A stretch of 43,332 bases of DNA, from the NCBI GenBank assembly GCA_019244055.1, contig JAFATG010000181.1:1-43332 (forward strand). Reading direction: 5' to 3'. Positions 1 to 16,535 of the stretch are shown one piece after another. The first letter of the stretch is position 1, and each line of letters opens with the position of its first letter. The stretch comes from Acidobacteriaceae bacterium (GTDB lineage: Bacteria; Acidobacteriota; Terriglobia; Bryobacterales; Bryobacteraceae). A program made the position numbers and the translations under genes. A model generated the notes under the pieces. The model was not told the DNA's origin. It saw only the letters and a list, made by a program, of their open reading frames with translations, and ran no database searches.

Positions 1-759
1 GATTTTCTCGAGCGCTGGCCCACGCTAGAAGAGCTACAAAAAGCCAGGACCAGCACGATCCAACGTTTCTTCATCGACCACAACAGTCGGAATGCGGGCA
101 AGATTGGCAGCAGAGTGGAAGACATTCGACGAGCCGTACCCGCGACGCAGGACTCGGCCGTGATCATTGCGTCTTCCTCGGCGGCGCTCGCCTTGGTAGG
201 AGTCCTACGTCAGTTACGGCTTGCAATTTCGGCTTACGATTCTCAGATTGAGAAGCTTGCTCGCGCACACCCCGATTTCGCCATTTTCGATTCTTTTCCA
301 GGAGCTGGCGCAGCGTTAGTGCCCCGCCTAATTGCTGCTCTCGGCACTCATCGCGACCGGTACCGAACGGCCCACGAGATTCAATGTTATAGCGGCATTG
401 CTCCAGTTGTCGAAAGCAGCGGTAAGCAGCACTGGGTTCACTACCGTCGATCCTGCCCTAAGTTCCTGCGGCAAACCTTTCACGAGTGGGCACTGCATTC
501 CATCGCTGGTTCGGCTTGGGCTAAAGACTACTACCGGCAGCATCGCGCAAGTGGCCAATCCCATCATTCCGCCGTTCGAGCGCTTGCTTTCAAATGGATC
601 CGTATTTTGTTCCGATGCTGGCAAGACCGCACGCTTTATGACGAGGCGATGCATGGGACCGCCCGTCGCCGGCGCGCTCGCAACGAGGGCGATTCGGCTG
701 TGCAACTTCAGTGGAAAACCTGCGCCGGATTCAGCAAACTTTCGCTCCAAATCCCTTGA
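1..759 (+). CDS. IS110-family transposase, C-terminal part (5' end outside window)
   Basis: The frame is open from the first base to a TGA at 757-759, giving 252 residues. The family moves circular intermediates with a DEDD/serine recombinase guided by an RNA encoded in the element. The visible part is the Transposase_20 domain: FPGAGAALVPRL, then the segment SGIAPVVESSGK that should carry the catalytic serine, then the conserved helical stretch around HEWALHSI. The N-terminal RuvC-like DEDD domain must lie upstream of the window. The frame runs to a natural-looking C-terminus without interruption, so this copy may be intact. It sits only about 17 bases before recognisable GH13 coding sequence, which suggests insertion into or next to that gene. 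Confidence 0.88.
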   Translation, partial: DFLERWPTLEELQKARTSTIQRFFIDHNSRNAGKIGSRVEDIRRAVPATQDSAVIIASSSAALALVGVLRQLRLAISAYDSQIEKLARAHPDFAIFDSFPGAGAALVPRLIAALGTHRDRYRTAHEIQCYSGIAPVVESSGKQHWVHYRRSCPKFLRQTFHEWALHSIAGSAWAKDYYRQHRASGQSHHSAVRALAFKWIRILFRCWQDRTLYDEAMHGTARRRRARNEGDSAVQLQWKTCAGFSKLSLQIP

Positions 760-776
760 CTGACAAGCTCAGATGT
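1..776 (+). mobile_element. Right part of an IS110-group insertion sequence
   Basis: The transposase end is followed after about 17 bases by GH13 coding sequence, so the element's right end must be very short and fall near 760-776. IS110-group elements (as opposed to the IS1111 group) carry their long non-coding, guide-RNA-bearing end upstream of the transposase, which fits a short right end here. The exact junction and the left end cannot be determined from this window, and no terminal inverted repeat can be checked. Confidence 0.5.
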
Positions 777-1636
777 CTAACGATTTACGAGGTTTGGTTG
801 AATGCCTTCAGTAAAGAAGGTACCCTCCGGGGCGCCATACCTGGTCAGACCCATATTTCCGAGCTTGGCGCCTCCGTTGTCTATCTGGATCGCTAAGCGC
901 TCGGGAATACCGCACGCATCACCATACAACATCGCCGATTACAACACCGTCGACCCGCAATACGGCACTGAAAGTGATTTTCGCGATTTCGTCTCGACGG
1001 CGCATAAGGTCGGCCTAAAGGCGATGCTTGACATTGTGTATTACCGCACGGCTCCGGATGGTATGATGAGCCAGCATCCGGATTGGCTGGTGCACAACCT
1101 CCTGGCCGTTGTAGAGAAACGGAATGCCTACAACAACCCGCAGGTGCGTCGATATCTGATTGAGAGCCTGATCCACTGGGTCCGAGATTTTAGCGTGGAC
1201 GGCTTCCGCTGCACGCCCACTCACTGGCTTACCAGCGCGCCCATCCAATGGCCCGGAGAGGGGGACCGAAACGAGAAGGCGGTTACGAAGGAAACGCTGT
1301 CGAAGTACCAGCGCCTATTTGCAATTCGCAACGAAATTGCTGCCCTCACGACCGGAGACTTGATCTGGATTAAACAACAGCGAACCCGATAGCGTCTTGA
1401 GCTTTCTTCGCCGCAACGGCAGTGAAGAGATCCTCATTGTCCTGAATCTCTCAAACCGCGACACGCACGTGAGGATCGACCTTCCTGTGATGGAGTACTC
1501 GTCGCTCGAAAATCTGCTGGCTGGAGGCAAGACGTCTTTTCAGCTCTATTCAGGGCGGGTTTCCGCCGATCTGAGTGCATTCCAGGCAATCGTCGGTAGG
1601 CGAATCCCGCTGGCGCCGTTGGACCGAATTCAGTGA
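777..1636 (+). pseudogene. Degenerate alpha-amylase-family (GH13) gene in three frames
   Basis: Remains of a GH13 glycoside hydrolase run through three successive frames. From about 777 to 890 the frame contains LTIYEVWLNAFS and ends ELGASVVYLDR (first strand and helix of the TIM barrel). From about 892 to 1370 a second frame continues with HASPYNIADYNTVDPQYG and MLDIVYYRTAPD. From about 1370 a third frame gives the C-terminal beta-domain (EILIVLNLSNR). Region I reads DIVYYRT where family members usually have an N-H pair, and region II reads DGFRCTP where the nucleophile Asp should follow Cys. The jump from region II almost straight to the C-terminal helix implies an internal deletion of roughly 150 residues, covering the acid/base Glu. 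The gene is dead; its N-terminus is lost, perhaps to the adjacent insertion sequence. Confidence 0.85.
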
Positions 1637-2855: not shown

Positions 2856-4181
2856 ATGAATCCGAATGGGATTGCAGATAGCTCATGCAATTCCGGACAT
2901 CTGGATGAATTGTGCTGGGCGTATAAGCCTCTTCCCTCGCAGGCGAGATTCAAGGCGGTTCGTTCACGGCTAAAAGGGTTTTCGGGACCGGTGGGGTCCG
3001 GAAAGAGCGCGGCTCTATCGTTTGAAGCGCTTCGGCTTTCGTATATCAACAGAGGACGACAAGGCGTGCTCGCAGCTCCTACGTACACCATGCTGCGTGA
3101 CGCAACGTTGGCCAGTCTTCTCGAGCTGCTCTCAGTTCAGGAGATCGAATTTGAAAGAAGAAAGGCGGACGGAGAAATCATCGTGATTCGGCCTGACAGC
3201 GTCACTCTACTGAGATCGCTCGACGAGCCGGAAAGATTACGCGGGACAAACTTAGCATGGTTTGGAATAGACGAACTGTCGTATTCGCGAGAAGAAGGGT
3301 GGCTTCGGTTGGAGGCCAGGCTTCGGGACCCGAAGGCCAGAAGGCTCTGCGGGCTGGCTGTTTGGACGCCCCAAGGCCATGATTGGGTCTACAAACGGTT
3401 CATTCATAACCCAATTGAGGGCTATGAATGCGTTCAGGCGAAGCCGTTCGAGAACACTCACGTCCTCGGGAAAACGCCTGATTACTACGAACGTTTGGAA
3501 AGAAGTTATGATCCGAGGTTCTATCGTCAGGAGGTTCTGGGCGAATACGTAAACAGTCGCACAGACCGCGTGTATCACTGTTTCAATCAGAGCGTTCATA
3601 TGGGCCAGCATCAGTACGATCCAAAAGAACCGCTAATGTGGGCTCTGGATTTCAACGTGGCGCCGATGAGTTCGATCCTTCTGCAGTGGAAGCGAGATCA
3701 GTTGGTGGTGATAGATGAAATTGTGCTCGACAGGGCTTCGACTGAGGAGGCCTGCCTTGAATTCGAGAACCGCTACAAGCACCATGCCGCAAAGATCGAG
3801 ATTTTTGGAGACGCAAGTGGAAGACACATGCGGACCACGGGGAAGACGGATTACGAGATATTACAAAGCTCCTTGCGACGGGCGGGGTTCAGCAACGTAA
3901 GCGTGCGGGTACCGCTTAGCAACCCACCTGTTATGAGCCGAGTGCATCGGGTTAATGCATTGCTTACAAATGCCTTAGGAGAGGTAAGGTTGGAGGTAAA
4001 CAGCCGCTGCATGGAATTGATTCGCGACTTCGAGGAAGTGGTATTCAAACCCGATTCTGGAGTGATTGACAAGAACAGAGATCCCAAGCGTAGCCATGTT
4101 TCCGATGCCTTGGGCTATGCGATTTGGGAGCTATTCGGTGAAAAACCAAGAGCTGGGGAAATGGACAAGCGATTGTTTTAA
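2856..4181 (+). CDS. Phage terminase large subunit
   Basis: This 441-residue protein is the ATP-driven motor and nuclease that packages DNA into phage-type heads. The ATPase half shows a Walker A loop GPVGSGKSA (K50) and a Walker B-like region WFGIDELSYS around residues 133-142. The C-terminal RNase H-like nuclease shows its three acidic positions: D265 in ALDFNVAPM, D319 in FGDASG and D417 in HVSDALGY. Length is normal for the family and both active sites look intact. It is the first large gene of a same-strand structural module and is followed 18 bases later by the portal gene. No recognisable small terminase subunit precedes it, a feature shared with some gene transfer agents and headful-packaging phages. 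Confidence 0.93.
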   Translation: MNPNGIADSSCNSGHLDELCWAYKPLPSQARFKAVRSRLKGFSGPVGSGKSAALSFEALRLSYINRGRQGVLAAPTYTMLRDATLASLLELLSVQEIEFERRKADGEIIVIRPDSVTLLRSLDEPERLRGTNLAWFGIDELSYSREEGWLRLEARLRDPKARRLCGLAVWTPQGHDWVYKRFIHNPIEGYECVQAKPFENTHVLGKTPDYYERLERSYDPRFYRQEVLGEYVNSRTDRVYHCFNQSVHMGQHQYDPKEPLMWALDFNVAPMSSILLQWKRDQLVVIDEIVLDRASTEEACLEFENRYKHHAAKIEIFGDASGRHMRTTGKTDYEILQSSLRRAGFSNVSVRVPLSNPPVMSRVHRVNALLTNALGEVRLEVNSRCMELIRDFEEVVFKPDSGVIDKNRDPKRSHVSDALGYAIWELFGEKPRAGEMDKRLF

Positions 4182-4199
4182 AGCGGATCGAGTGGAGAC

Positions 4200-5585
4200 A
4201 TGATCGAGATCGACCGGGAACACCCGGACTACAAACGACAGTTGCATGCGTGGCGCATGTATCGCGACCTCTACTCAGGAGGGCACGCTTTCAAAGCGCG
4301 TGCAGCGGACTATCTTCTGAGAAGGCAGAAAGAGCCACTCGATGTGTACTCGGAGAGATTGCATCGCGTATTTTACGAGAACTACATCGGCTCAATTATC
4401 GACTGGTATGCGGCCACGGTCTTTCGGCGCGAGCCCAGCTTCGAATTCCAGGGAGGCTTTAAATCGGGTCATGCGTTCCTAACTAAGTTGGCAGACGATT
4501 GCGATATGAGAGGAACGAAATTGGCCAGCTTTTTCCGGCTTTGCTTTATAGATTCCCTAATCGCAGGTGCATCTCACGTCCTGATCGATTTTCCTCGGGC
4601 TATCAACCGGCCTCAGAATCGGGCCGAAGAGGAATCCGAGGGCTTGTCGAGGGCCTTTCTCGTACGTTATCAGGCGGAGGAGCTGATCAATTGGAGCTGC
4701 GATGAACGTGGGGAATACGAGTGGGTCGTTATCCGGCACAAGTTACGCCGGCAGCCGACGATAGATAAGTCGGAAGTCGTTGATGAGACTTTGTGGCATT
4801 ACTATGACAGATCATCATACCGGACGTACAGGCGAATCGAGGGGCCCGACGAGCGGAATATCGAACTGGTGTCTCAGGGCATGCACGGATTAGCCAGACT
4901 CCATCGTGTACCGCTCATAACACTTCAGGTGAGCGAAGGCCTGTGGCTGATGAACAAGGCAGCCCACCTACAACTGGAGCACTTCAACAAGTCCAATGCG
5001 TTGGGCTGGGCGATCACGATGGGACTGTTCGCGATGCCGGTCGTCTACTCAGATCGCGAGTGGAATCAAATCGTCGGAGAGAGTTACTTCATTCAGCTCG
5101 GCCCCACAGACCGGTTCGGCTGGACGGAACCGGATGGAAAGGTTTACCAGATTGCGGCTGACAATTTAGAAACTCTTAAAGAAGAGATCTACAGAGTCTG
5201 CTATTTGTCTCAGGCTTCTGGAGAAATCGCGGGCGGAAGAGCTCAGTCTGCTTTGAGCAAGCAGCTTGACTTCACCATTACTCAGGAAGTGTTGAGGGCG
5301 TACGGCGCGGCTCTCAAAGAAACGATCGCAAAGATCGTGACGGCGATTTCCGACGCCCGTCAAGACGGGATAGCGATTTCCGTTTCCGGTCTAGACGAGG
5401 TCGACATCAGCGATTTCGGGACCGAGTTGCAACAGGCAGCTTCGCTCTTACAGGTGGGCATCGATTCACCGACGCTGAAAGCCCAGGTTTTCGAGCGATT
5501 GGCTTTCAAATACCTGAGCGATGCCCGGCAGGAAATTAAGGACCAGGTTGTGCACGAAATCCGTGCACAGTTACGGGGGCGATAA
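4200..5585 (+). CDS. Phage portal protein
   Basis: A 461-residue protein placed directly after the terminase, where the portal ring of the DNA entry vertex is normally encoded. Sequence features fit the SPP1/DUF4055-like portal type: an N-terminal segment with YENYIGSIIDWYAATVF, a central region with GLARLHRVPLITLQVSEGLW, and a long helical stem region near ASGEIAGGRAQSALSKQLDF, followed by a helix-rich C-terminus ending in RAQLRGR. Twelve copies of such proteins form the channel contacted by the terminase and by the connector proteins encoded downstream. The family call rests on position, length and general pattern; I see no diagnostic catalytic residues because the protein is structural. 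Confidence 0.85.
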   Translation: MIEIDREHPDYKRQLHAWRMYRDLYSGGHAFKARAADYLLRRQKEPLDVYSERLHRVFYENYIGSIIDWYAATVFRREPSFEFQGGFKSGHAFLTKLADDCDMRGTKLASFFRLCFIDSLIAGASHVLIDFPRAINRPQNRAEEESEGLSRAFLVRYQAEELINWSCDERGEYEWVVIRHKLRRQPTIDKSEVVDETLWHYYDRSSYRTYRRIEGPDERNIELVSQGMHGLARLHRVPLITLQVSEGLWLMNKAAHLQLEHFNKSNALGWAITMGLFAMPVVYSDREWNQIVGESYFIQLGPTDRFGWTEPDGKVYQIAADNLETLKEEIYRVCYLSQASGEIAGGRAQSALSKQLDFTITQEVLRAYGAALKETIAKIVTAISDARQDGIAISVSGLDEVDISDFGTELQQAASLLQVGIDSPTLKAQVFERLAFKYLSDARQEIKDQVVHEIRAQLRGR

Positions 5586-5590
5586 GGGAA

Positions 5591-6172
5591 ATGTCAGATC
5601 AAACGGAAACGGAACAAATTCAAACAGCCAGCGCGGATGTTCGAGATATAGTCCGCCAAGCCATAGAAGAGTTCATTCACGCCGAGCAGCGGAAGGCGGA
5701 GCCGGCGTATCGCACGGAGCTGCAAGATGAGCGTAAGCGACGGGAAGCTTTGGAGGCGCGTCTGAATCAGTTGGTAGAGGAGAACCGCCAGACGAAGGCG
5801 GTAGCGGAAGAGGCGGACCGGAATGCGCAGATCCGAAGCGAACTGCAACAGCTAGGCGTGGCAAAGATCGATCTCGCCTTCAAAGCCATCAAGGACGATA
5901 TCGTGAGAGCCAGCGATGGACAACTGCAGGCTAGGGGCAAAGAGGGCAAGTCACTGCGGGAGTTTCTGACAACTTTTGTGCAGGAGAACCCGGAACTGCT
6001 TCCCGCCCGAATCGCTGGGGGAAGCGGCGCCCAGATCCCAATGCGCGATGCAGCGGAGATCGGTTCGCCGGTCGATATCAACAAGATTAAGCCAGGAATG
6101 AGTAAGGACGAGCTCGAGCGCGTGCGTAAGGAGATATCAAGAATCGCGAGCCAGGCGCTGAGGGGTGTCTGA
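5591..6172 (+). CDS. Capsid scaffolding protein (predicted)
   Basis: A 193-residue, highly charged protein between portal and major coat genes. Residues about 30-85 form a strong predicted coiled coil (KRREALEARLNQLVEENRQ), and the C-terminus is a helix with many basic and acidic residues (KDELERVRKEISRIASQ). A coiled-coil protein immediately before the coat gene is the usual scaffold. There is no sign of a maturation protease domain, which agrees with a P22-like coat protein that needs scaffold but no proteolysis. It starts five bases after the portal stop, so translation is probably coupled. Confidence 0.75.
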   Translation: MSDQTETEQIQTASADVRDIVRQAIEEFIHAEQRKAEPAYRTELQDERKRREALEARLNQLVEENRQTKAVAEEADRNAQIRSELQQLGVAKIDLAFKAIKDDIVRASDGQLQARGKEGKSLREFLTTFVQENPELLPARIAGGSGAQIPMRDAAEIGSPVDINKIKPGMSKDELERVRKEISRIASQALRGV

Positions 6173-6210
6173 TCCGCTTCTTATGATTCTTACTTGACAC
6201 CGTAAACAGT

Positions 6211-6270
6211 AGCTTGAGCCAAAGCCAGACGTCTATCTAGAACGAACTAGGGACAAGTCTGGTTAAAGCT
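6211..6270 (+). promoter_or_regulatory. Foldable 5' leader of the major capsid gene
   Basis: The 112-base gap before the coat gene contains nested inverted repeats. AGCTTGAGCC (6211-6220) can pair with GGTTAAAGCT (6261-6270) in nine of ten positions, counting one G-U. Alternatively CCAGAC (6225-6230) pairs with GTCTGG (6257-6262). An inner CTAG/CTAG pair (6237-6240 and 6247-6250) encloses a six-base loop. The closing stem ends six bases before the Shine-Dalgarno AGGAG (6276-6280). It could stabilise the mRNA, mark a processing site or modulate translation. A TTGACA hexamer at 6194-6199 resembles a -35 box, but no good -10 box sits at proper spacing. Confidence 0.45.
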
Positions 6271-6284
6271 GATTTAGGAGATAA

Positions 6285-7196
6285 ATGTCAACAATTACAT
6301 CTGCAAATTTAGCAAATGCGATCGTAAAGCTGGTCGCTGCAGAGGCGTTGCCTGCTTTGTTAGGTAACCTCGTCATGGGAAGTTTGGTTAACCGCGATTA
6401 TGAGCCTGTGTTGGCCCACGCCGGCGACACGGTCAATGTGCCGATTCCTCCGGTTCTGGTCGCAAATAATATTGCGGAAGGGGGCACGGTTCAGCCGCAG
6501 AATCCTAATCTGGGCAATGCTCAGATCGTGCTGAACACTCATGCGGAAGCGTCGTTTATACTTCCGGACGTTACGAAGGCCCTGGCGTTTCCAGAGCTTC
6601 TTAAGGCGTATATGCAGCCTGCCGTGATCGCCATCGCGGAGCGCGTCGAGTCAGATCTGCTTGGCCTTTACGCGCAGTTTACTGCCAATGCTCCTGTCGG
6701 GTCCGCTGGCACGCCAATCACTGAAGCTGTCATCGATGCGGCCGAAACGGCTTTGTTCTCAGCGAAAGTGCCGGCGACTGCTCCAAAGTATCTGGTGGTG
6801 GATTCAAACACTTATTCACAGATTCGGCAGATTCCTCGCTTCAGCGAATATTATTCGTCGGGTGAAGCAGGGCTGAAGGCGCTGGTTGAAGGAAACGTCG
6901 GAAAGATGAAAGACTTCTTCATCTTCCGGTCGCAGTTCGTGCCAGTAACCGGTACCACAAATCCAAACACTCATAATCTAGCCTTCACGCGCGATGCGTT
7001 GGGCTTGGTTGTGCGTCGCCTTCCTCAACCTCTTCCGGGAACGGGCGCCGTTGCCGAATATGCCGAAATGGGCAACTTCGGCCTTCGAATTGTGATGAGC
7101 TATCAGCCAAATACTCTAGCTCAGCAGTTTACTGTCGACGTGCTGTACGGTGGCGGTGTCCTGCGGAATAACTTCGCAGTTCAGGTGAACACCTAA
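6285..7196 (+). CDS. Major capsid protein, P22 coat-like
   Basis: A 303-residue protein preceded by the best ribosome binding site of the head region (AGGAG, 6276-6280). The N-terminal part (VAAEALPALLGNLVMGSLVNRD, here split as residues about 17-38) followed by GDTVNVPIPP resembles P22-like coat proteins. The middle contains the axial-domain pattern TAPKYLVVDSNTYSQI, and the end returns to the beta-rich HK97 fold (NFGLRIVMSYQPN). It would be the most abundant product of the module. A foldable leader lies before it and a ten-base-pair hairpin after it, so it may have its own expression level. No protease gene is present, matching a scaffold-dependent shell. Confidence 0.85.
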   Translation: MSTITSANLANAIVKLVAAEALPALLGNLVMGSLVNRDYEPVLAHAGDTVNVPIPPVLVANNIAEGGTVQPQNPNLGNAQIVLNTHAEASFILPDVTKALAFPELLKAYMQPAVIAIAERVESDLLGLYAQFTANAPVGSAGTPITEAVIDAAETALFSAKVPATAPKYLVVDSNTYSQIRQIPRFSEYYSSGEAGLKALVEGNVGKMKDFFIFRSQFVPVTGTTNPNTHNLAFTRDALGLVVRRLPQPLPGTGAVAEYAEMGNFGLRIVMSYQPNTLAQQFTVDVLYGGGVLRNNFAVQVNT

Positions 7197-7215
7197 CTTG
7201 GAGCAATTCTAACCG

Positions 7216-7239
7216 GGAAGGGGCCTACGGGCCCCTTCC
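7216..7239 (+). terminator. Strong GC hairpin after the capsid gene (attenuator or processing site)
   Basis: GGAAGGGGCC (7216-7225) and GGCCCCTTCC (7230-7239) form a perfect ten-base-pair stem closed by a TACG tetraloop, 20 bases after the capsid stop. No U-rich tract follows, only CAATTT, and the Shine-Dalgarno GGAGG of the next gene begins at 7247. It therefore is not a classical Rho-independent terminator. It is better placed as a partial terminator, a 3' stabiliser of the capsid message or an RNase site that lowers expression of the downstream minor head and tail genes. Confidence 0.7.
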
Positions 7240-7258
7240 TCAATTTGGAGGCAGAAAC

Positions 7259-7594
7259 ATGGATTTGAGACGGTACTTCCGCAAAATGCGCGAAGTGGAG
7301 GCTGAGCTTACAGAGCAGTACCCGATGGTTGTGAGCCTCGAGACTCCCGATGGGGGTAAGCCGGGTCTGGTAAGCGAGGTAGCTCGGGAAGTTGCGGCCA
7401 AGATGATCGTGGAAGGAAAAGCCGCACTGGCAACTGAAACCGAGCGCGACGCGTACCGAAAGGCGCAGGCAAATAGCAAAGCTGCCGCGCAGAAAGCAGA
7501 GCTGGCCCGGCGGTTACAAGTGGCGATTGTTGCCGATCCGGAGCTACACGCCTCCCTGTCCCCGCGCAAGGCCGGAAAGCCAACGGACGAGTAA
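7259..7594 (+). CDS. Phage head-region protein of unknown function
   Basis: A 111-residue charged protein with a clear Shine-Dalgarno site (GGAGG, 7247-7251). The N-terminal third (LRRYFRKMREVEAELTEQYP) may be helical; residues about 50-90 form an alanine-rich helix (RKAQANSKAAAQKAELARR). The C-terminus is basic and probably disordered. I do not recognise the family. Position between coat and connector genes suggests a minor head component, a capsid-decoration helper or an assembly factor. The stop codon is two bases before the next start. Confidence 0.6.
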   Translation: MDLRRYFRKMREVEAELTEQYPMVVSLETPDGGKPGLVSEVAREVAAKMIVEGKAALATETERDAYRKAQANSKAAAQKAELARRLQVAIVADPELHASLSPRKAGKPTDE

Positions 7595-7596
7595 GC

Positions 7597-8376
7597 ATGG
7601 CTCTTTTTACCGATGCAGGGGCCGTCAGCCTCGACGATCTACTGCAATTTGAGACTTCGCTGGTGCAAGTTGCTTCATCTCACGGGATCAACGTGGATAC
7701 CAAGATCAAGCTGGCGAGTGAGACAATCGGCGACAAGCTCTTGCTTTGGTTGCTGGACGTTGGCGCTTCGGATCCCCAATTCGTTCAGCGAAGAGTGTTG
7801 GGGCTCTCAACTGTCGTGCTTACGGCGCCTCTACAGCGCTGGATCTGCTTCGAATCGTTATCGAGGTTTTTTGCTGAAGCCTATAACGTTCAGTTGAATA
7901 CCCGTTTTCAAGGAAAGTGGACGGAGTATGAAGCCGAATCGGCACAAGCCGAGCAAATGCTCTTCATGTCAGGTGTTGGCATCGTTTATGCGGCGCTCCC
8001 AAGGCCCGTGATGCCGTCGGTGTTGGTGGAGGGCGGAAATCTCCCGGCACAGGCCATATTCGTTCAGAGCGCCTGGGTGGATGCGGCTGGAAACGAAGGC
8101 GCTCTGAGCCCAGTGAATGGGCTAGTTCTCCCAGCTCAGTCAAGTATCGCGGTAAGTATGCCTGGGAGCAGCGCGTATTTTCCGGCCGCCGCAGTTGGCT
8201 GGAACGTGTATGTAAGTTCTTCCGAAGTAGATTTAACGCGGCAGAATCTTACCCCTCGCCCGGTCGGCTCCATCTGGTATTCACCAAGCACGGGAATTGT
8301 GGACGGACCGGATCCGGTCGGCGGACAGACCCCTCAGTTCTATATCACGCTGTCGAAACAAATAAAGAGAGGGTGA
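7597..8376 (+). CDS. Probable head-tail adaptor with C-terminal Ig/FnIII-like domain
   Basis: A 259-residue protein in two parts. Residues 1 to about 125 are helical and contain LQRWICFESLSRFFAEAYN and LNTRFQGKWTEYE, a pattern I associate with connector (adaptor) proteins that dock under the portal. Residues about 145-250 form a beta-rich domain with SAWVDAAGNEGALSPVNG and WNVYVSSSEVDL, resembling a fibronectin-like module that is also present in the large hub protein of this cluster. Adaptor function is inferred from position and the helical half. An adhesive surface domain on a neck protein is unusual. Confidence 0.6.
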   Translation: MALFTDAGAVSLDDLLQFETSLVQVASSHGINVDTKIKLASETIGDKLLLWLLDVGASDPQFVQRRVLGLSTVVLTAPLQRWICFESLSRFFAEAYNVQLNTRFQGKWTEYEAESAQAEQMLFMSGVGIVYAALPRPVMPSVLVEGGNLPAQAIFVQSAWVDAAGNEGALSPVNGLVLPAQSSIAVSMPGSSAYFPAAAVGWNVYVSSSEVDLTRQNLTPRPVGSIWYSPSTGIVDGPDPVGGQTPQFYITLSKQIKRG

Positions 8377-8379
8377 GAC

Positions 8380-8877
8380 ATGCCGCCGCTTACACTTCTT
8401 GGCACGCAGAAAGTCGCCGGCTTACTCGCGGCAGGAAATGCGCTCGGGCAGCAGATTGCACAGCTTGCCGCGGAAGCAAGTATTCTTATACCAACTATTG
8501 AGGCCGAACGGGTTCTGCTAAGCTCGGCGCCTCCCGATCTGGCCGACAATAACATGCAGTTCGCTTATCCGAGAATCTGTATTTACAGCGGATCTGTCAA
8601 GAACACACAAGTTGAGAAGTTCAGGTCTTTCTCCGGGACGATTGAGGTCTTCTCGGATATCTGGGCCAGTGGGGATTTTGCGACTCAAACGGACGAATGG
8701 ATTCACTACTACATCGAGGCGGTCACGACAATTCTTCGCGCGAACACAGGAAATTGGGGTGACGGCATTTTCTTTTCCGGGCGGTACCAAGTAAAGCTGC
8801 AGCCGCCCAAGGTAGGCGGCTTAGGGTTTGTGGAAGTGGCGACGGTGACGTGCATATTAGACGCGAGCATCAGTTAG
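8380..8877 (+). CDS. Probable neck or tail-terminator protein
   Basis: A 165-residue alpha/beta protein starting three bases after the previous stop. The pattern, with an N-terminal helix, a strand around YPRICIYSGS, a helix WIHYYIEAVTTILRANTG and a last strand FVEVATVTCILDAS, is the general layout of tail-terminator or tail-completion proteins of siphophages. Its place between adaptor and tail-tube genes supports that role. There is no catalytic motif. The exact family is not recognised and a head-closure (stopper) role is equally possible. Confidence 0.6.
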   Translation: MPPLTLLGTQKVAGLLAAGNALGQQIAQLAAEASILIPTIEAERVLLSSAPPDLADNNMQFAYPRICIYSGSVKNTQVEKFRSFSGTIEVFSDIWASGDFATQTDEWIHYYIEAVTTILRANTGNWGDGIFFSGRYQVKLQPPKVGGLGFVEVATVTCILDASIS

Positions 8878-8884
8878 GGCTCCG

Positions 8885-10054
8885 ATGGCAAACTATATCT
8901 CTTCAAACGCAAACCGGTTCTACGCAGCACTTGAGCAGAACTACGGCTTGGCCGCATCAATAGCGGCGGGTAATCGCTATCCGGCGGTAAAGCTGCAAGC
9001 ACAGCAGGTATTAGAACGGAGCCGGCGGTTAGACAAAACAGGTACGCGAACCTTCCTGGGAACTCCCAAAACGGCGAAGCGTCAGACAGCCTTTGAAACA
9101 AGTACCTATCTCACATCGTGGATGGGAGCGGGCGAACCTTGCTACGGAACTTTGATGCGAGCGGCTTTGGGCGGTATTCCACAGGTAAGCGGGGGGCTTT
9201 CAATTGCAAGCCTTATCAGCTCGACGGCGATCCAAACCTCAACTCCGCACGGGCTCAGCAAGGGGACCGGCATCGCCTTTGAGAACGAAGTTAGATTTGT
9301 GACTGACGTTGTCGACAATGTAACAGTTCTAATTAATGCCCCGTTTTCGCAGGGTTTACAACCAAGTAGCGTTCTTACGCCTTGCGTAACGTATACCCTA
9401 GGCAGCGAGTTGCCGAGCGTAACACTCTATGATTACTGGGACCCCGTAACGGCTGTGAGCCGGATTGTCACGGGCGCGGCTGTCGACCTCTTAGAAATGA
9501 GCGTGAACGGAGACTTTCATGAATTCACGTTCAGGGGACAGGCTGCGGACCTCTTGGATTCCAGCAGTTTCGTTTCCGGCATGGCTGGATTGTCGGCATT
9601 TCCGACCGAGCCGCCTTTGGGTCCGTTTGACTACAGTATTGTGCCGGGGCATTTGGGACAAGCCTGGTTGGGCGGAATTGCGAGTCAATTCTTTACGCTG
9701 AGCTCGGCCAGCCTTGAGGTCAACAACAATCTAGACGTGCGAAACCAGGAGTTTGGGTTTTCCTATCCGCAGGGCATCGTCCCTGGGCCACGACAGGTTG
9801 CATCTAACTTCACGATATTCGCTCAAGACGACACACAGACCGAGGCATTGTACGCGGCAGCGAAGGAGCGCAGCCTGATTTCTGCCATGTTGCAGTTGGG
9901 GCAGCAGCAGGGAGAGCTCATGGGCATCTTCTTGCCACAGGTCACTCCGGAAGTGCCGAACTATGACGATTCGGAGACAAGGTTGCAATGGCAGTTCAGG
10001 AACAACTTAGCGCAAGGAACAGCTAATGACGAAATCTTCATCGCATTTGCATGA
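8885..10054 (+). CDS. Major tail tube protein (predicted)
   Basis: A 389-residue beta-rich protein located where the tail tube gene is expected, immediately before the tail chaperone. The N-terminal half has an inserted beta-module (HGLSKGTGIAFENEVRF), of the type decorating phage structural proteins. The C-terminal half carries EVNNNLDVRNQEFGFSYP and the helix TQTEALYAAAKERSLISAM, which resembles the tube fold in which an alpha helix packs on a beta sandwich. No contractile sheath gene is visible, so a non-contractile tail is implied. Its last 29 bases overlap the start of the chaperone gene in another frame. Confidence 0.75.
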   Translation: MANYISSNANRFYAALEQNYGLAASIAAGNRYPAVKLQAQQVLERSRRLDKTGTRTFLGTPKTAKRQTAFETSTYLTSWMGAGEPCYGTLMRAALGGIPQVSGGLSIASLISSTAIQTSTPHGLSKGTGIAFENEVRFVTDVVDNVTVLINAPFSQGLQPSSVLTPCVTYTLGSELPSVTLYDYWDPVTAVSRIVTGAAVDLLEMSVNGDFHEFTFRGQAADLLDSSSFVSGMAGLSAFPTEPPLGPFDYSIVPGHLGQAWLGGIASQFFTLSSASLEVNNNLDVRNQEFGFSYPQGIVPGPRQVASNFTIFAQDDTQTEALYAAAKERSLISAMLQLGQQQGELMGIFLPQVTPEVPNYDDSETRLQWQFRNNLAQGTANDEIFIAFA

Positions 10055-10424
10055 GGAAGCGAATTACGAGAGTGTAACCTGGCGAGATAGCCGGAGCACT
10101 CCGGGCGTGCGATTCGCAACCAGGCGCGTTTCGTTAGGTCGGCGCATAGAGTTGAATAAGAACATTCGAGAGCTAATGCTTCGTCACGAGTTCCTCAAGG
10201 CGGGCGAAACTGAAGATAAACTGGAGGCCAGTCTTGGTGAGTTGCTGGTTCGGAAACTCTACCTGGAGTGGGGACTCAAAGAAATTAGCGGGCTAAAAAT
10301 AGACGGTGAGATAGCAACTGCGGATCAACTGATCGAGCGAGGGCCGGAGGCCTTGACCGACGAAGTGATCGAAGCCGTTCAAGCTGAGTTAGCGCTTTCG
10401 GACGACGAACGAAAAAACTCCTGA
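10026..10424 (+). CDS. Tail assembly chaperone, short form (G-like)
   Basis: A 132-residue helical, acidic protein beginning inside the end of the tail tube gene. The C-terminal helix (PEALTDEVIEAVQAELALSD) ends in DDERKNS before TGA. Phages encode two chaperones here, the shorter and a frameshifted longer form, that coat the tape measure during tail building. The slippery heptamer A AAA AAC at 10412-10418 lies in the correct phase at its last codons. Assignment rests on position, composition and the frameshift signal rather than strong sequence identity. Confidence 0.75.
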   Translation: MTKSSSHLHEEANYESVTWRDSRSTPGVRFATRRVSLGRRIELNKNIRELMLRHEFLKAGETEDKLEASLGELLVRKLYLEWGLKEISGLKIDGEIATADQLIERGPEALTDEVIEAVQAELALSDDERKNS

Positions 10425-10750
10425 TCGCATTCCATTTCCAGTACTCTCCGCCAGCCGCGTGGGAATGCGATAAATGCCGGTCGAGCGGCTTGGTGCAACT
10501 GAGGAATTGCGCCTGGGCGGCCAATGGTGCGGCCGGGATGAAGCGGCCTGTTTGGGCTCGTGGAAACGTTGTCTCCTTCCACTGTCCAAAGTCAGTCATT
10601 ACAGCAGAGAGCCTGACGTTCCTCGAGCAGTTTCAGATTTGGAAGACGCTAAGTGGGCTGGACTTGTTCTCGTTAGAGGCAAGAACGGCTGACGCATTTC
10701 TATTGTTGGAGCGAGAGTGCCGTAAGGAGGCGAAGGATGGCTCGAACTAA
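10026..10750 (+). CDS. Tail assembly chaperone, long form made by -1 frameshift (GT-like)
   Basis: A -1 shift on A AAA AAC (10412-10418) joins the 131 residues of the short form to a frame that is open from 10418 to the TAA at 10748-10750, adding 110 residues for a predicted 241-residue fusion. The added part begins LLIAFHFQYSPPAAW and contains CDKC followed by RNC, a possible metal-binding knuckle, and ends in a helical region FLEQFQIWKTLSG. No credible ATG starts this frame on its own; its first internal start is a TTG at 10490. The fused region overlaps the next gene by 14 bases. This is the classical lambda G/GT arrangement. Confidence 0.82.
10412..10490 (+). promoter_or_regulatory. Programmed -1 ribosomal frameshift site with stem and possible pseudoknot
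   Basis: The heptamer A AAA AAC occupies 10412-10418 with zero-frame codons AAA and AAC in register. After a five-base spacer, ATCGCATTCC (10424-10433) pairs perfectly with GGAATGCGAT (10462-10471), a ten-base-pair stem. Within its 28-base loop, AGCCGC (10453-10458) is complementary to GCGGCT (10485-10490) downstream, so an H-type pseudoknot can form. The zero-frame stop is at 10422-10424, directly after the slip site. Every element of a -1 frameshift signal is present at textbook spacing. Confidence 0.85.
10724..10730 (+). promoter_or_regulatory. Ribosome binding site of the tape-measure candidate
   Basis: AAGGAGG, a near-perfect anti-16S match, lies six bases before the ATG at 10737 and inside the end of the frameshifted chaperone frame. 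It supports the ATG start and independent initiation of the following gene. Confidence 0.8.
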
Positions 10751-11384
10751 TACGTTGCGGAGTCTGACAGATGCGATTGCGACGACAAGGGCGTCGAGGA
10801 GTAGCCCAGTTGCGCTGTCGGAGATAGCAAACAACTACTTTGCTCCCCGGAATTCAGCAACTCGCACGGCGGCAGGCAAAGCGACGGACTTCATGCTATC
10901 AGCAATGAGTGCCCGGGCAGTGTCTTCAGGGATTCGATTCGGATCGCCGTCAAGCCGCGCGACAACCTCTAGCGGAGCTACGGGTTTCAATTGGTCGCAC
11001 CTACTCGAGCAGGCCGGTTCAGGGGGATTGGCGAACCTATTTGGAGGCGGCGGAAGCCTTCTGGGTGGCTTCGGATCGCTGTTCTCCGGCCTAGTCGGTC
11101 TATTCGGGTCCAGTAAGCCGGCGTTACCTGCGCTCGTGCGATTCCAGTTGCCGGCGGTTCAAGACCAGGTAGCTTCAGTGAATCTCAGCGGGGGCAGTAC
11201 GGTGTCTGGCGAGCATCGGATTAGCGGGTATACGCCCGGAGGAATCTATGGAACTGCCGGGAAGCAGGGAAACGTTTCCTCGAACACACCAACAAGCCAG
11301 TACCAAAAAAGCCAAATCGTCCAGACAGTTAAACAGGCTCTGCTGAACAGCAGCAGCTTGAATGATGTCGTTGCGGAGATCTAA
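10737..11384 (+). CDS. Short tape-measure candidate (tail length ruler)
   Basis: A 215-residue protein exactly where the tape measure gene normally follows the frameshifted chaperone. The N-terminal 60 residues are helical and polar. Residues about 95-125 form a glycine-rich hydrophobic segment (LANLFGGGGSLLGGFGSLF), a typical tape-measure feature that may contact the membrane during DNA entry. The C-terminus is a polar helix ending SSLNDVVAEI. Tape measures are usually 600 to over 1000 residues; if this is the ruler, the tail would be only some tens of nanometres. It could instead be a different tail protein, with no ruler in the module. Confidence 0.55.
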   Translation: MARTNTLRSLTDAIATTRASRSSPVALSEIANNYFAPRNSATRTAAGKATDFMLSAMSARAVSSGIRFGSPSSRATTSSGATGFNWSHLLEQAGSGGLANLFGGGGSLLGGFGSLFSGLVGLFGSSKPALPALVRFQLPAVQDQVASVNLSGGSTVSGEHRISGYTPGGIYGTAGKQGNVSSNTPTSQYQKSQIVQTVKQALLNSSSLNDVVAEI

Positions 11385-11385
11385 G

Positions 11386-11745
11386 GTGCCGACCTTCCCT
11401 CTACTAAGCTCTGGCGCTGTAGCGCAGTATTCGTTACCAGTTCTAACGGGCCAAGCAGTTCAGACCATTCGTTTCTTAGACGGCGCCGACCAGCGTTACT
11501 TGATACAAGGGCGCACATTCCGGCAATGGGAGATCCGACTCACCTTGCTCACTGACAGTGAAATTGCGCAGCTTCAAACCTTTTTTACCGAGCAGCAGGG
11601 AGACTATACGAAATTCGATTTTCCGGATCCACTCAGCGGACAGATGATTCCGAACTGCCGCTTGCTCATTCCGGAGATGACATGTAGTTACGAAGGCGTC
11701 GGTGCAAGCTCGACGCTCCTGTATGTGACAGAGACGAATGGCTAA
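11386..11745 (+). CDS. DUF2460-like distal tail protein, first copy
   Basis: I chose the GTG at 11386, two bases after the upstream stop and behind GGAG, over two ATGs at 11362/11365, because it gives 119 residues beginning MPTFPLLSSG, which aligns with the N-terminus of the next gene (LTSGTLVQYPF). The motif WEIRLTLLTDSEIAQLQTFF followed by GDYTKFDFPDP resembles DUF2460 proteins, the family of distal tail protein ORF12 in the Rhodobacter gene transfer agent. Such proteins form the ring at the tube tip that holds the hub. The gene overlaps its paralog downstream by eight bases. Confidence 0.68.
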   Translation: MPTFPLLSSGAVAQYSLPVLTGQAVQTIRFLDGADQRYLIQGRTFRQWEIRLTLLTDSEIAQLQTFFTEQQGDYTKFDFPDPLSGQMIPNCRLLIPEMTCSYEGVGASSTLLYVTETNG

Positions 11746-12535
11746 TCTCTTCTTTCCACAATTGACAAGTGGCACACTTGTGCAATACCCGTTCACGAGG
11801 ACCCGTGTTTTTAGATCGATAAAAAACGTCCTGGCGGACGGCGAAATGATTCTCTTGCCGGATCCTGGCGCGGGTAGGCTCTTATGGCAGCTTGCTTACC
11901 AGGATTTATCACCAGCAGATACAGAGGCACTTACGAATCATTATCAGACCTGCCGCGGCCCTTTTCGTGGCTTTACGTTCATCGATCCTACCGACAACAT
12001 GTTTGTATCAAGCTCTGACTTGACAAATACAGCATGGGGAAAATCGGAGTCAGTTCAGGTTGAGAGCGGTCAAGCAGACCCTGTTAACGGTACTGGCGGA
12101 TTTGCGCTAACGAACACCGGTGAGACCGACGCGTACTTCACACAGACGCTGCCGGTACCGGCAAGCTATGCATATACTCTTTCGCTCTACTTGCAAAGCG
12201 CGGGGGCCTCGATCGTTAAGTTAATTCGCGGCGGCCCGTCCGAGCAACAGATTACGACCGTTTCGGTAGGGCCGCAGTGGACACGGGTTCTTTCGAGCGG
12301 AGCATTGAATGATTACGGTACAAGCCTGTCGGCGGGCATCATTCTGTCTGCTGGTCAGCAGGTCTCAGCATTTGGCCTGCAGCTCGAAGCGCAGCCTTCA
12401 CCGTCACAGTATCGAGCCACAGCACAGACAGGCGGCGTCTACACTGAAGCGCATTGGTCAGCCAACGAATTTGTGGTTGTGGCTACGGGCAACGAACTTT
12501 TTTCGACAACGTTCGGTATTGATACGGCGATTTAG
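11738..12535 (+). CDS. DUF2460-like distal tail protein, second copy with jelly-roll extension
   Basis: A 265-residue protein starting inside the stop region of its paralog (ATGGCTAA overlap). Residues 1 to about 90 repeat the first copy: LTSGTLVQYPF, then WQLAYQDLSPADTEALTNHY and GPFRGFTFIDPTDN. Residues about 95-225 form a beta-sandwich resembling a carbohydrate-binding jelly roll (YAYTLSLYLQSAG, SVGPQWTRVLSSG, GQQVSAFGLQLEA), likely exposed at the tail tip. The tail tip would then have two related rings, one with an added receptor-facing domain. Sugar binding is inference from the fold pattern only. Confidence 0.65.
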   Translation: MANLFFPQLTSGTLVQYPFTRTRVFRSIKNVLADGEMILLPDPGAGRLLWQLAYQDLSPADTEALTNHYQTCRGPFRGFTFIDPTDNMFVSSSDLTNTAWGKSESVQVESGQADPVNGTGGFALTNTGETDAYFTQTLPVPASYAYTLSLYLQSAGASIVKLIRGGPSEQQITTVSVGPQWTRVLSSGALNDYGTSLSAGIILSAGQQVSAFGLQLEAQPSPSQYRATAQTGGVYTEAHWSANEFVVVATGNELFSTTFGIDTAI

Positions 12536-16483: not shown

Positions 16484-16535
16484 GTCATGTGTTTCGGCGA
16501 CTGCTACCAGGAGCCCACCCAGATAATATGGTCGG

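Follow-up and report, generated by a model that had tools for sequence, protein, structure and literature searches.

A stretch of 43,332 nucleotides from an acidobacterial genome of the family Bryobacteraceae (hereafter the window) contains a phage-like gene cluster in which a short gene ends just as a second open frame of 110 codons begins. How is this second frame translated, and why would a soil bacterium carry it? A sequence-only reading of the window had proposed that ribosomes slip back by one base and join the two frames, as in the G and GT tail chaperones of phage lambda. Our analysis supports this interpretation: the locus very probably encodes a programmed -1 ribosomal frameshift of the lambda G/GT type, within a phage-like cluster that appears to be selected and largely vertically inherited.

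Two overlapping frames and their predicted products

The 0-frame ORF (10026-10424, forward strand) encodes 132 amino acids and its 3' end reads CGA AAA AAC TCC TGA, with codons AAA at 10413-10415 and AAC at 10416-10418 placing the heptamer A AAA AAC in phase. The -1 frame spans 10418-10747 (110 codons) and closes with TAA at 10748-10750, giving a predicted fusion of 131+110 = 241 residues. The earlier positions for the heptamer, the five-base spacer, the open frame and the fusion were all correct (Table 1). The claim that the -1 frame has no good start of its own also held, as its first ATG, GTG or TTG in the window is a TTG at 10490, downstream of residues that never vary among 84 aligned homologues.

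In the proposed mechanism, ribosomes on the 132-aa chaperone message would slip at A AAA AAC, with a stem 5 nt downstream as the likely stimulator, predicted to extend to a pseudoknot in many relatives. The majority would terminate one codon on at TGA and release the short chaperone; a minority would continue into the 241-aa fusion, which adds a separate four-cysteine domain predicted to be well folded. By analogy with lambda, the short form may coat the tape-measure-like protein while the fusion recruits tail-tube subunits. We infer the slippage itself, its rate, the chaperone roles and particle production.

The slip heptamer of lambda differs from A AAA AAC. The heptamer type found here is a recorded one: a survey of conserved frameshift clusters in prokaryotes includes A_AAA_AAC among its A-rich consensus heptamers (PMC3711429); that survey covered three acidobacterial genomes and, in its available text, does not mention this gene. 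In lambda, a -1 shift near the end of the tail-chaperone gene yields the short gpG, which coats the tape measure, and the fused gpGT, which recruits the tail tube (PMC5009743, as excerpted). The Bryobacteraceae locus resembles this system in that the predicted -1 shift lies near the end of the chaperone gene and that gene follows a tail tube gene. It differs from lambda G/GT in that its proteins belong to orphan families, its -1 domain has four cysteines and no fold match, its stem or pseudoknot stimulator is apparently under selection throughout a family of bacteria, and the element is borne by the host.

Table 1 Features of the cluster and of the predicted frameshift, in window coordinates.
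Feature	Coordinates	Strand	Basis
Terminase large subunit	2856..4181	+	phrog_2 E 2.4e-34, PF03237 E 1.4e-6
Portal protein	4200..5585	+	phrog_145 E 4.3e-49
Scaffold-like protein (weak)	5591..6172	+	position, phrog_194 E 0.052, PF06810 E 0.14
Major capsid protein, P22-coat type	6285..7196	+	PF11651 (P22_CoatProtein) E 2.8e-12, phrog_283 E 9.1e-41
Three small ORFs, head/neck/tail-completion position	7259-7594, 7597-8376, 8380-8877	+	ordered tblastn matches, 20/20 loci
Tail tube protein	8885..10054	+	PF18906 E 4.3e-8, phrog_290 E 1.8e-13
0-frame tail-assembly-chaperone-like protein, 132 aa, 'G'-like	10026..10424	+	ORF, 78-row family alignment, AF2 model
Slippery heptamer A AAA AAC, in phase	10412..10418	+	sequence, conservation across 79 loci
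Spacer, 5 nt	10419..10423	+	sequence; alignment of 81 rows gap-free there
-1 frame extension, 110 aa + stop, 'T'-like	10418..10750	+	conservation, AF2 model, dN/dS
Stem 1, 5' arm	10424..10433	+	covariation
Pseudoknot stem 2, 5' arm, within stem 1 loop	10453..10458	+	synonymous re-coding test
Stem 1, 3' arm	10462..10471	+	covariation
Pseudoknot stem 2, 3' arm	10485..10490	+	synonymous re-coding test
215-aa ORF, tape-measure position	10737..11384	+	position only, no Pfam/PHROG match
Two DUF2460-related distal-tail ORFs	11362-11745, 11738-12535	+	PF09343 E 3.3e-4, 6.8e-5, below curated cut-off
Tail tip protein, 1313 aa	12542..16483	+	phrog_31 E 3.4e-25, PF13550 E 2.2e-8

Position and predicted fold lend the resemblance to the lambda chaperones some support; it did not extend to sequence families. 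Pfam and PHROGs searches of both proteins returned no useful match, and a tblastn comparison with 50,697 phage records returned none for either. The AF2 model of the 0-frame protein (pLDDT 86; family alignment A3 with 78 of the 85 available proteins) had no PDB fold match at E ≤ 0.001; among viral folds, 12 named tail-assembly or tape-measure chaperones appeared in the 50 matches listed of 129, all of them above E 0.001. The -1 domain was modelled at pLDDT 92 and has seven invariant residues across 84 aligned homologues, including four cysteines (17, 20, 31 and 56) that may form a metal site. Its fold searches gave no useful match; one search aligned 10 chains, with the first 60 residues barely covered. 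The tail tube gene lies upstream of the chaperone gene, and its downstream neighbour is a tape measure by position only. Position and modelled fold, rather than sequence families, point to a probable tail-chaperone identity.

Conservation of the slip site and the -1 frame

Of 150 genomes searched with the -1 protein (the window's own and 149 relatives), 81 had matches, and exclusion of G144 (spurious) and G092 (contig begins after the site) left 79 loci, one per genome; the loci left out were L091 and L092, both spurious, and L093, on a contig that starts past the site. At the same junction, 76 loci carry AAAAAAC and 2 carry AAAAAAT, with the heptamer absent in 1 (L052). The -1 frame is open in 79 of 79, with L089 cut by a contig end, an openness that is partly by construction because these loci were found through the -1 protein. 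All six viral-contig loci found instead through the 0-frame protein had both the heptamer and the -1 frame, two of the six being cut by contig ends and one being identical to the window. Stop codons in the -1 frame of homologues, named beforehand as evidence against a frameshift, did not occur, and loss of the heptamer without loss of the downstream coding, likewise named, was confined to 1 of 79 loci. In that locus (L052, genome G033, about 1486-1500), GAGAAAC replaces the heptamer and the stop, stem and -1 frame are retained; a sequencing error, decay or another route may account for it. The 0-frame stop follows the heptamer directly in 53 of the 79 loci, one codon on in 21 and later in 5.

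The codons at the junction are not those favoured elsewhere in the two frames. Wherever Arg precedes the heptamer Lys, its codon has A as third base (74 of 74), compared with 23% of Arg codons in both frames, and the Lys at the slip site is AAA in 78 of 78, compared with 28% in the two frames. By these sequence comparisons, the heptamer appears to be kept against codon preference. The -1 frame likewise evolves as coding sequence: among 14 same-genus loci, its 349 differences from the window comprise 181 at third positions versus 99 and 69 at the other two, and dN/dS was 0.08-0.14 in four pairs, with dS saturated in one.

These data bear on two other routes to the second product. In 78 of 79 loci the site contains a run of six A, which might suggest that the polymerase, not the ribosome, slips and so yields the fusion, although six A is a short run for transcriptional slippage. 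In every one of the 78 heptamer loci, position seven is C or T, never A or G, and both RNA helices described below are conserved beyond the protein requirement, which slippage in transcription would not need; we regard this route as very unlikely. Slightly less credible still is that the -1 frame is started independently, by re-initiation or an internal start, giving two separate proteins beside an incidental heptamer. Such a start could draw on an upstream ATG, GTG or TTG in the open -1 frame, which 39 of 79 loci possess, and on TTG 10490 in the window. However, the other 40 loci have no ATG, GTG or TTG from the preceding -1 stop to the invariant Ala4, a start at 10490 would drop the invariant Ala4, Cys17 and Cys20, conservation begins at the first residue past the slip, and the heptamer appears to be kept against codon preference.

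Seven family genomes have the capsid gene and no -1 match; in six of them, the contig ends before or at the site. In the seventh, G011, which belongs to the window's genus, both chaperone frames are absent (L410, 4879-4962), and tail tube, tape-measure-position ORF, DUF2460 ORFs and tip follow in order. This is either a genuine joint loss of both frames or an assembly fault. Joint disappearance would be expected if the chaperone pair forms one functional unit and, unless the assembly is at fault, retention of the genes from tail tube to tip means that the chaperones are dispensable to persistence of the cluster in that genome. Two pattern outliers, L104 (Psychroserpens) and L128 (Nitrospiraceae), lack a chaperone homologue, compared with 78 of 80 listed loci that have one, and were taken as chance.

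A conserved stem and a variable second helix downstream of the heptamer

When the 80 nt downstream of the heptamer were dinucleotide-shuffled, a perfect 10-bp stem at a distance of 3-9 nt appeared in 2 of 20,000 trials. The 6-nt complement between loop and downstream sequence arose in 1,034 of 5,000 shuffles (~21%) and is not significant in one sequence. Folding the bases 3' of the slip site alone recovered the 10-bp stem; folding 101 nt that included upstream bases gave a different structure (MFE -24.1, z +0.90).

Comparison across relatives used an ungapped structure alignment (A2) of 81 rows, made up of 74 loci and 7 viral-contig rows; L075, L078, L087, L088 and L090 are omitted (indels or offset), as are the viral-contig rows L031 and L037 (copies of the window) and L033 and L035 (cut). 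Together, stem 1 and stem 2 form standard pairs in 89% of 1,539 cells, a level reached in 0 of 500 shuffles and compared with 31-45% for slid structures. The lower five pairs of stem 1 are formed at 3/5 or better in each of the 81 rows. In the upper part, a register with a bulged U (register B) is ahead in 71 of 81 rows and tied in 10, a count of raw pairs (6 possible in B versus 5) that favours register B. The perfect 10-bp stem of the sequence-only reading is present in the window, which has the continuous form, but most homologues use this other register in the upper stem.

Stem 1 was supported by covariation, traced on a tree from which residues 10-28 of the -1 protein had been left out. 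At its closing pair (columns 19-66), both sides changed on 8 branches (p 1.3e-6), and the forms seen were A-U, G-C and C-G; pairs 24-60 and 25-59 likewise co-change along the tree. For stem 2, pairwise co-change reached p 0.002-0.04 at 4 of 8 pairs and was not significant at the other four (53-80: p 0.26). In 1,000 synonymous re-codings, neither stem 1 nor stem 2 ever paired as fully as observed, and after thinning to 46 sequences the same was true of lower stem 1 and of stem 2. A complete 6/6 stem 2 is present in 39 of 81 rows, against 2.0 expected by re-coding (maximum 9), and in 18 of the thinned sequences, against 1.0 expected (maximum 5).

Stem 2 is also largely absent in places, with two or fewer of six core positions pairing in six loci (L067, L070, L072, L074, L082 and L086). 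The suggested pseudoknot thus holds as a perfect 6-bp helix in the window that finds support in homologues, but the helix is not universal. From these alignments we conclude that stem 1 is the probable core stimulator, and stem 2 a real but apparently dispensable addition in most lineages. A switch of serine codons (Ala14 with AGC in 27/27, Gly14 with TCC in 12/13) was considered as proof of stem 2 and rejected, as it represents only 1-2 events on the tree; the case for stem 2 therefore rests on the synonymous re-coding test. An internal Shine-Dalgarno stimulator was rejected as well: anti-SD pairing upstream of the heptamer is weaker than the synonymous expectation (mean -4.65 versus -5.74 expected) and weaker than in all 200 simulations.

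Nature and descent of the gene cluster

The cluster measures 13.6 kb from terminase (2856) to tail tip (16483). Gene order is the same, and spacing nearly so, in 20 of 20 20-kb loci from other genomes (18 genera including the window's), except that terminase was undetected in L336 and the tape-measure-position ORF had no tblastn match in 12. This ORF is 178-255 aa long in the 12 relatives with a listed length. L349 (G097, from another family of the order) carries an insertion of ~3.6 kb, at about +0.9 to +4.5 kb relative to the slip site, which separates the tape-measure-position ORF from the DUF2460 genes. A scan of the 14 cluster ORFs found no integrase, replication, repressor or lysis family. 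Upstream of the cluster, window positions 115-1392 hold an IS110-type transposase ORF (PF02371; 115-759) and a short ORF with an alpha-amylase domain.

The element is widespread in one family. The capsid gene occurs in 81 of 90 Bryobacteraceae genomes, the window's own included (three of the matches being fragments at contig ends), mostly in single copy, and in 5 of 60 genomes outside the family; the -1 chaperone occurs in 75 of the 90. Second full capsid copies lie on other contigs in three genomes (G048:C144, G057:C156 and G069:C157), are 67-76% identical to the window's and are possibly related phages or duplicated elements. To trace descent, we compared an rpoB tree with a tree of six element genes for 21 genomes: the two have 7 of 18 splits in common, where 2,000 permutations of the labels gave an expectation of 0.26 and at most 3. 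Their distances are correlated (r 0.63, 0 of 9,999 permutations), also within the family once the window's genus is left out (r 0.55, 54 of 9,999). Strong rpoB splits were recovered in 6 of 9 cases; the 3 in conflict are two deep splits and the G063-G079 pair. Six genera have a downstream peptidase-like gene (window 17970; named from reading its sequence) close to the element, and five have an ABC-transporter-like gene there; in the rest the flanks differ. Across eight cluster genes, dN/dS was 0.03-0.23 where dS < 1, with portal saturated and terminase outside the set. Taken at the sequence level, these patterns suggest that the cluster is under purifying selection and was inherited largely vertically in Bryobacteraceae.

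What, then, is the cluster? It is most likely a domesticated element, either a gene transfer agent or another domesticated particle. Traits of gene transfer agents found here are about one copy per genome with vertical inheritance across the clade, purifying selection on structural genes, and a cluster free of integration and replication genes. On balance we favour, with some reserve, a previously unrecognised Bryobacteraceae gene transfer agent, independent of that of Rhodobacter capsulatus (RcGTA), domesticated near the root of the family and kept at roughly one copy, with a selected chaperone ratio and a host that still builds short-tailed particles. The distribution suggests that the host keeps the cluster because particles are made. 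A frameshift balancing two tail-assembly proteins would serve no purpose in a dead prophage. It is kept almost without exception in dozens of genera, which speaks for continuing assembly of tailed particles from host-borne genes in these soil bacteria.

An ordinary prophage, active or decaying, is an unlikely alternative to domestication, yet one with several observations on its side. The structural genes are Caudoviricetes-like, and the elements are catalogued as viruses in IMG/VR and probably correspond to the Bryobacteraceae proviruses of an earlier report (PMC11924767, as excerpted). The three conflicting rpoB splits, the differing flanking genes in many genera, the second capsid gene in three genomes and the loss of the chaperones in G011 would also suit a prophage. 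Weighing against it are the single copy in most of the 81 capsid-bearing family genomes, the identical gene order in all 20 loci, the excess of splits common with rpoB, the downstream neighbours common to several genera, the low dN/dS and the lack of integrase, replication, repressor and lysis families in the 14 ORFs.

RcGTA has DUF2460- and Phage-tail_3-related tail genes and an HK97-type capsid module. Like RcGTA, the Bryobacteraceae element is a compact structural cluster with a short protein in the tape-measure position (215 aa), and it has DUF2460- and Phage-tail_3-related tail-tip genes. Unlike RcGTA, it has a P22-coat type capsid (PF11651 E 2.8e-12), occurs in a different phylum and is known from genes alone; the homologous RcGTA-type capsid module that would place it in the RcGTA family proper was not found. 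The RcGTA tape measure comprises 113+83+20 residues (PMC7296036, as excerpted), and if the 215-aa ORF is a tape measure, the tail would be similarly short.

Parts of this element have been seen before. Bryobacteraceae proviruses with common gene order, including one in KBS 96, form group (i) of a 2025 Tunturi virus paper (PMC11924767, as excerpted), and the KBS 96 genome (G024) carries one copy of the element described here. Group (i) is probably this element, and its existence as a 'provirus' is then not new; the main text of that paper does not contain the words gene transfer agent, domesticated or frameshift. Elsewhere, in the text available from each source, prophages were counted in Acidobacteria including Bryobacter and Solibacter (PMC5900883), and gene transfer agents in soils receive general mention only (PMC12142844, PMC6172770 and PMC8522061). 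A +1 frameshift has been proposed for a hydrolase that belongs to a possible gene transfer agent of Wolbachia (PMC10299305, as excerpted), a different case from the -1 chaperone frameshift of Bryobacteraceae. Our searches of open-licence papers turned up neither a description of the latter frameshift nor one of any gene transfer agent in Bryobacteraceae. The domestication reading is testable and concerns gene exchange within Acidobacteriota, a phylum abundant in soils.

Several observations touch the surroundings of the element. The frameshift pattern occurs in at least 120 IMG/VR 'viral' contigs; each of the 80 listed (L213-L292) has at least two of six core genes of the cluster, and viral counts for acidobacterial soils may be inflated by such host-borne clusters. 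A second tail-tip/sheath-like set in L405 (G079, 3190-10121) is distantly similar to the cluster tip and separate from the main element. Directly 3' of the tip, 13 of 21 loci, among them that of G097, carry a gene of 900-1000 aa whose product includes a TIM barrel of the non-contractile-tail-sheath type (PF23845; for example L336:16488-19340). The gene is absent at window position 16484, and the remaining 8 loci, which include that of the window's genome (C48/C50), have only unlinked, more distant homologues.
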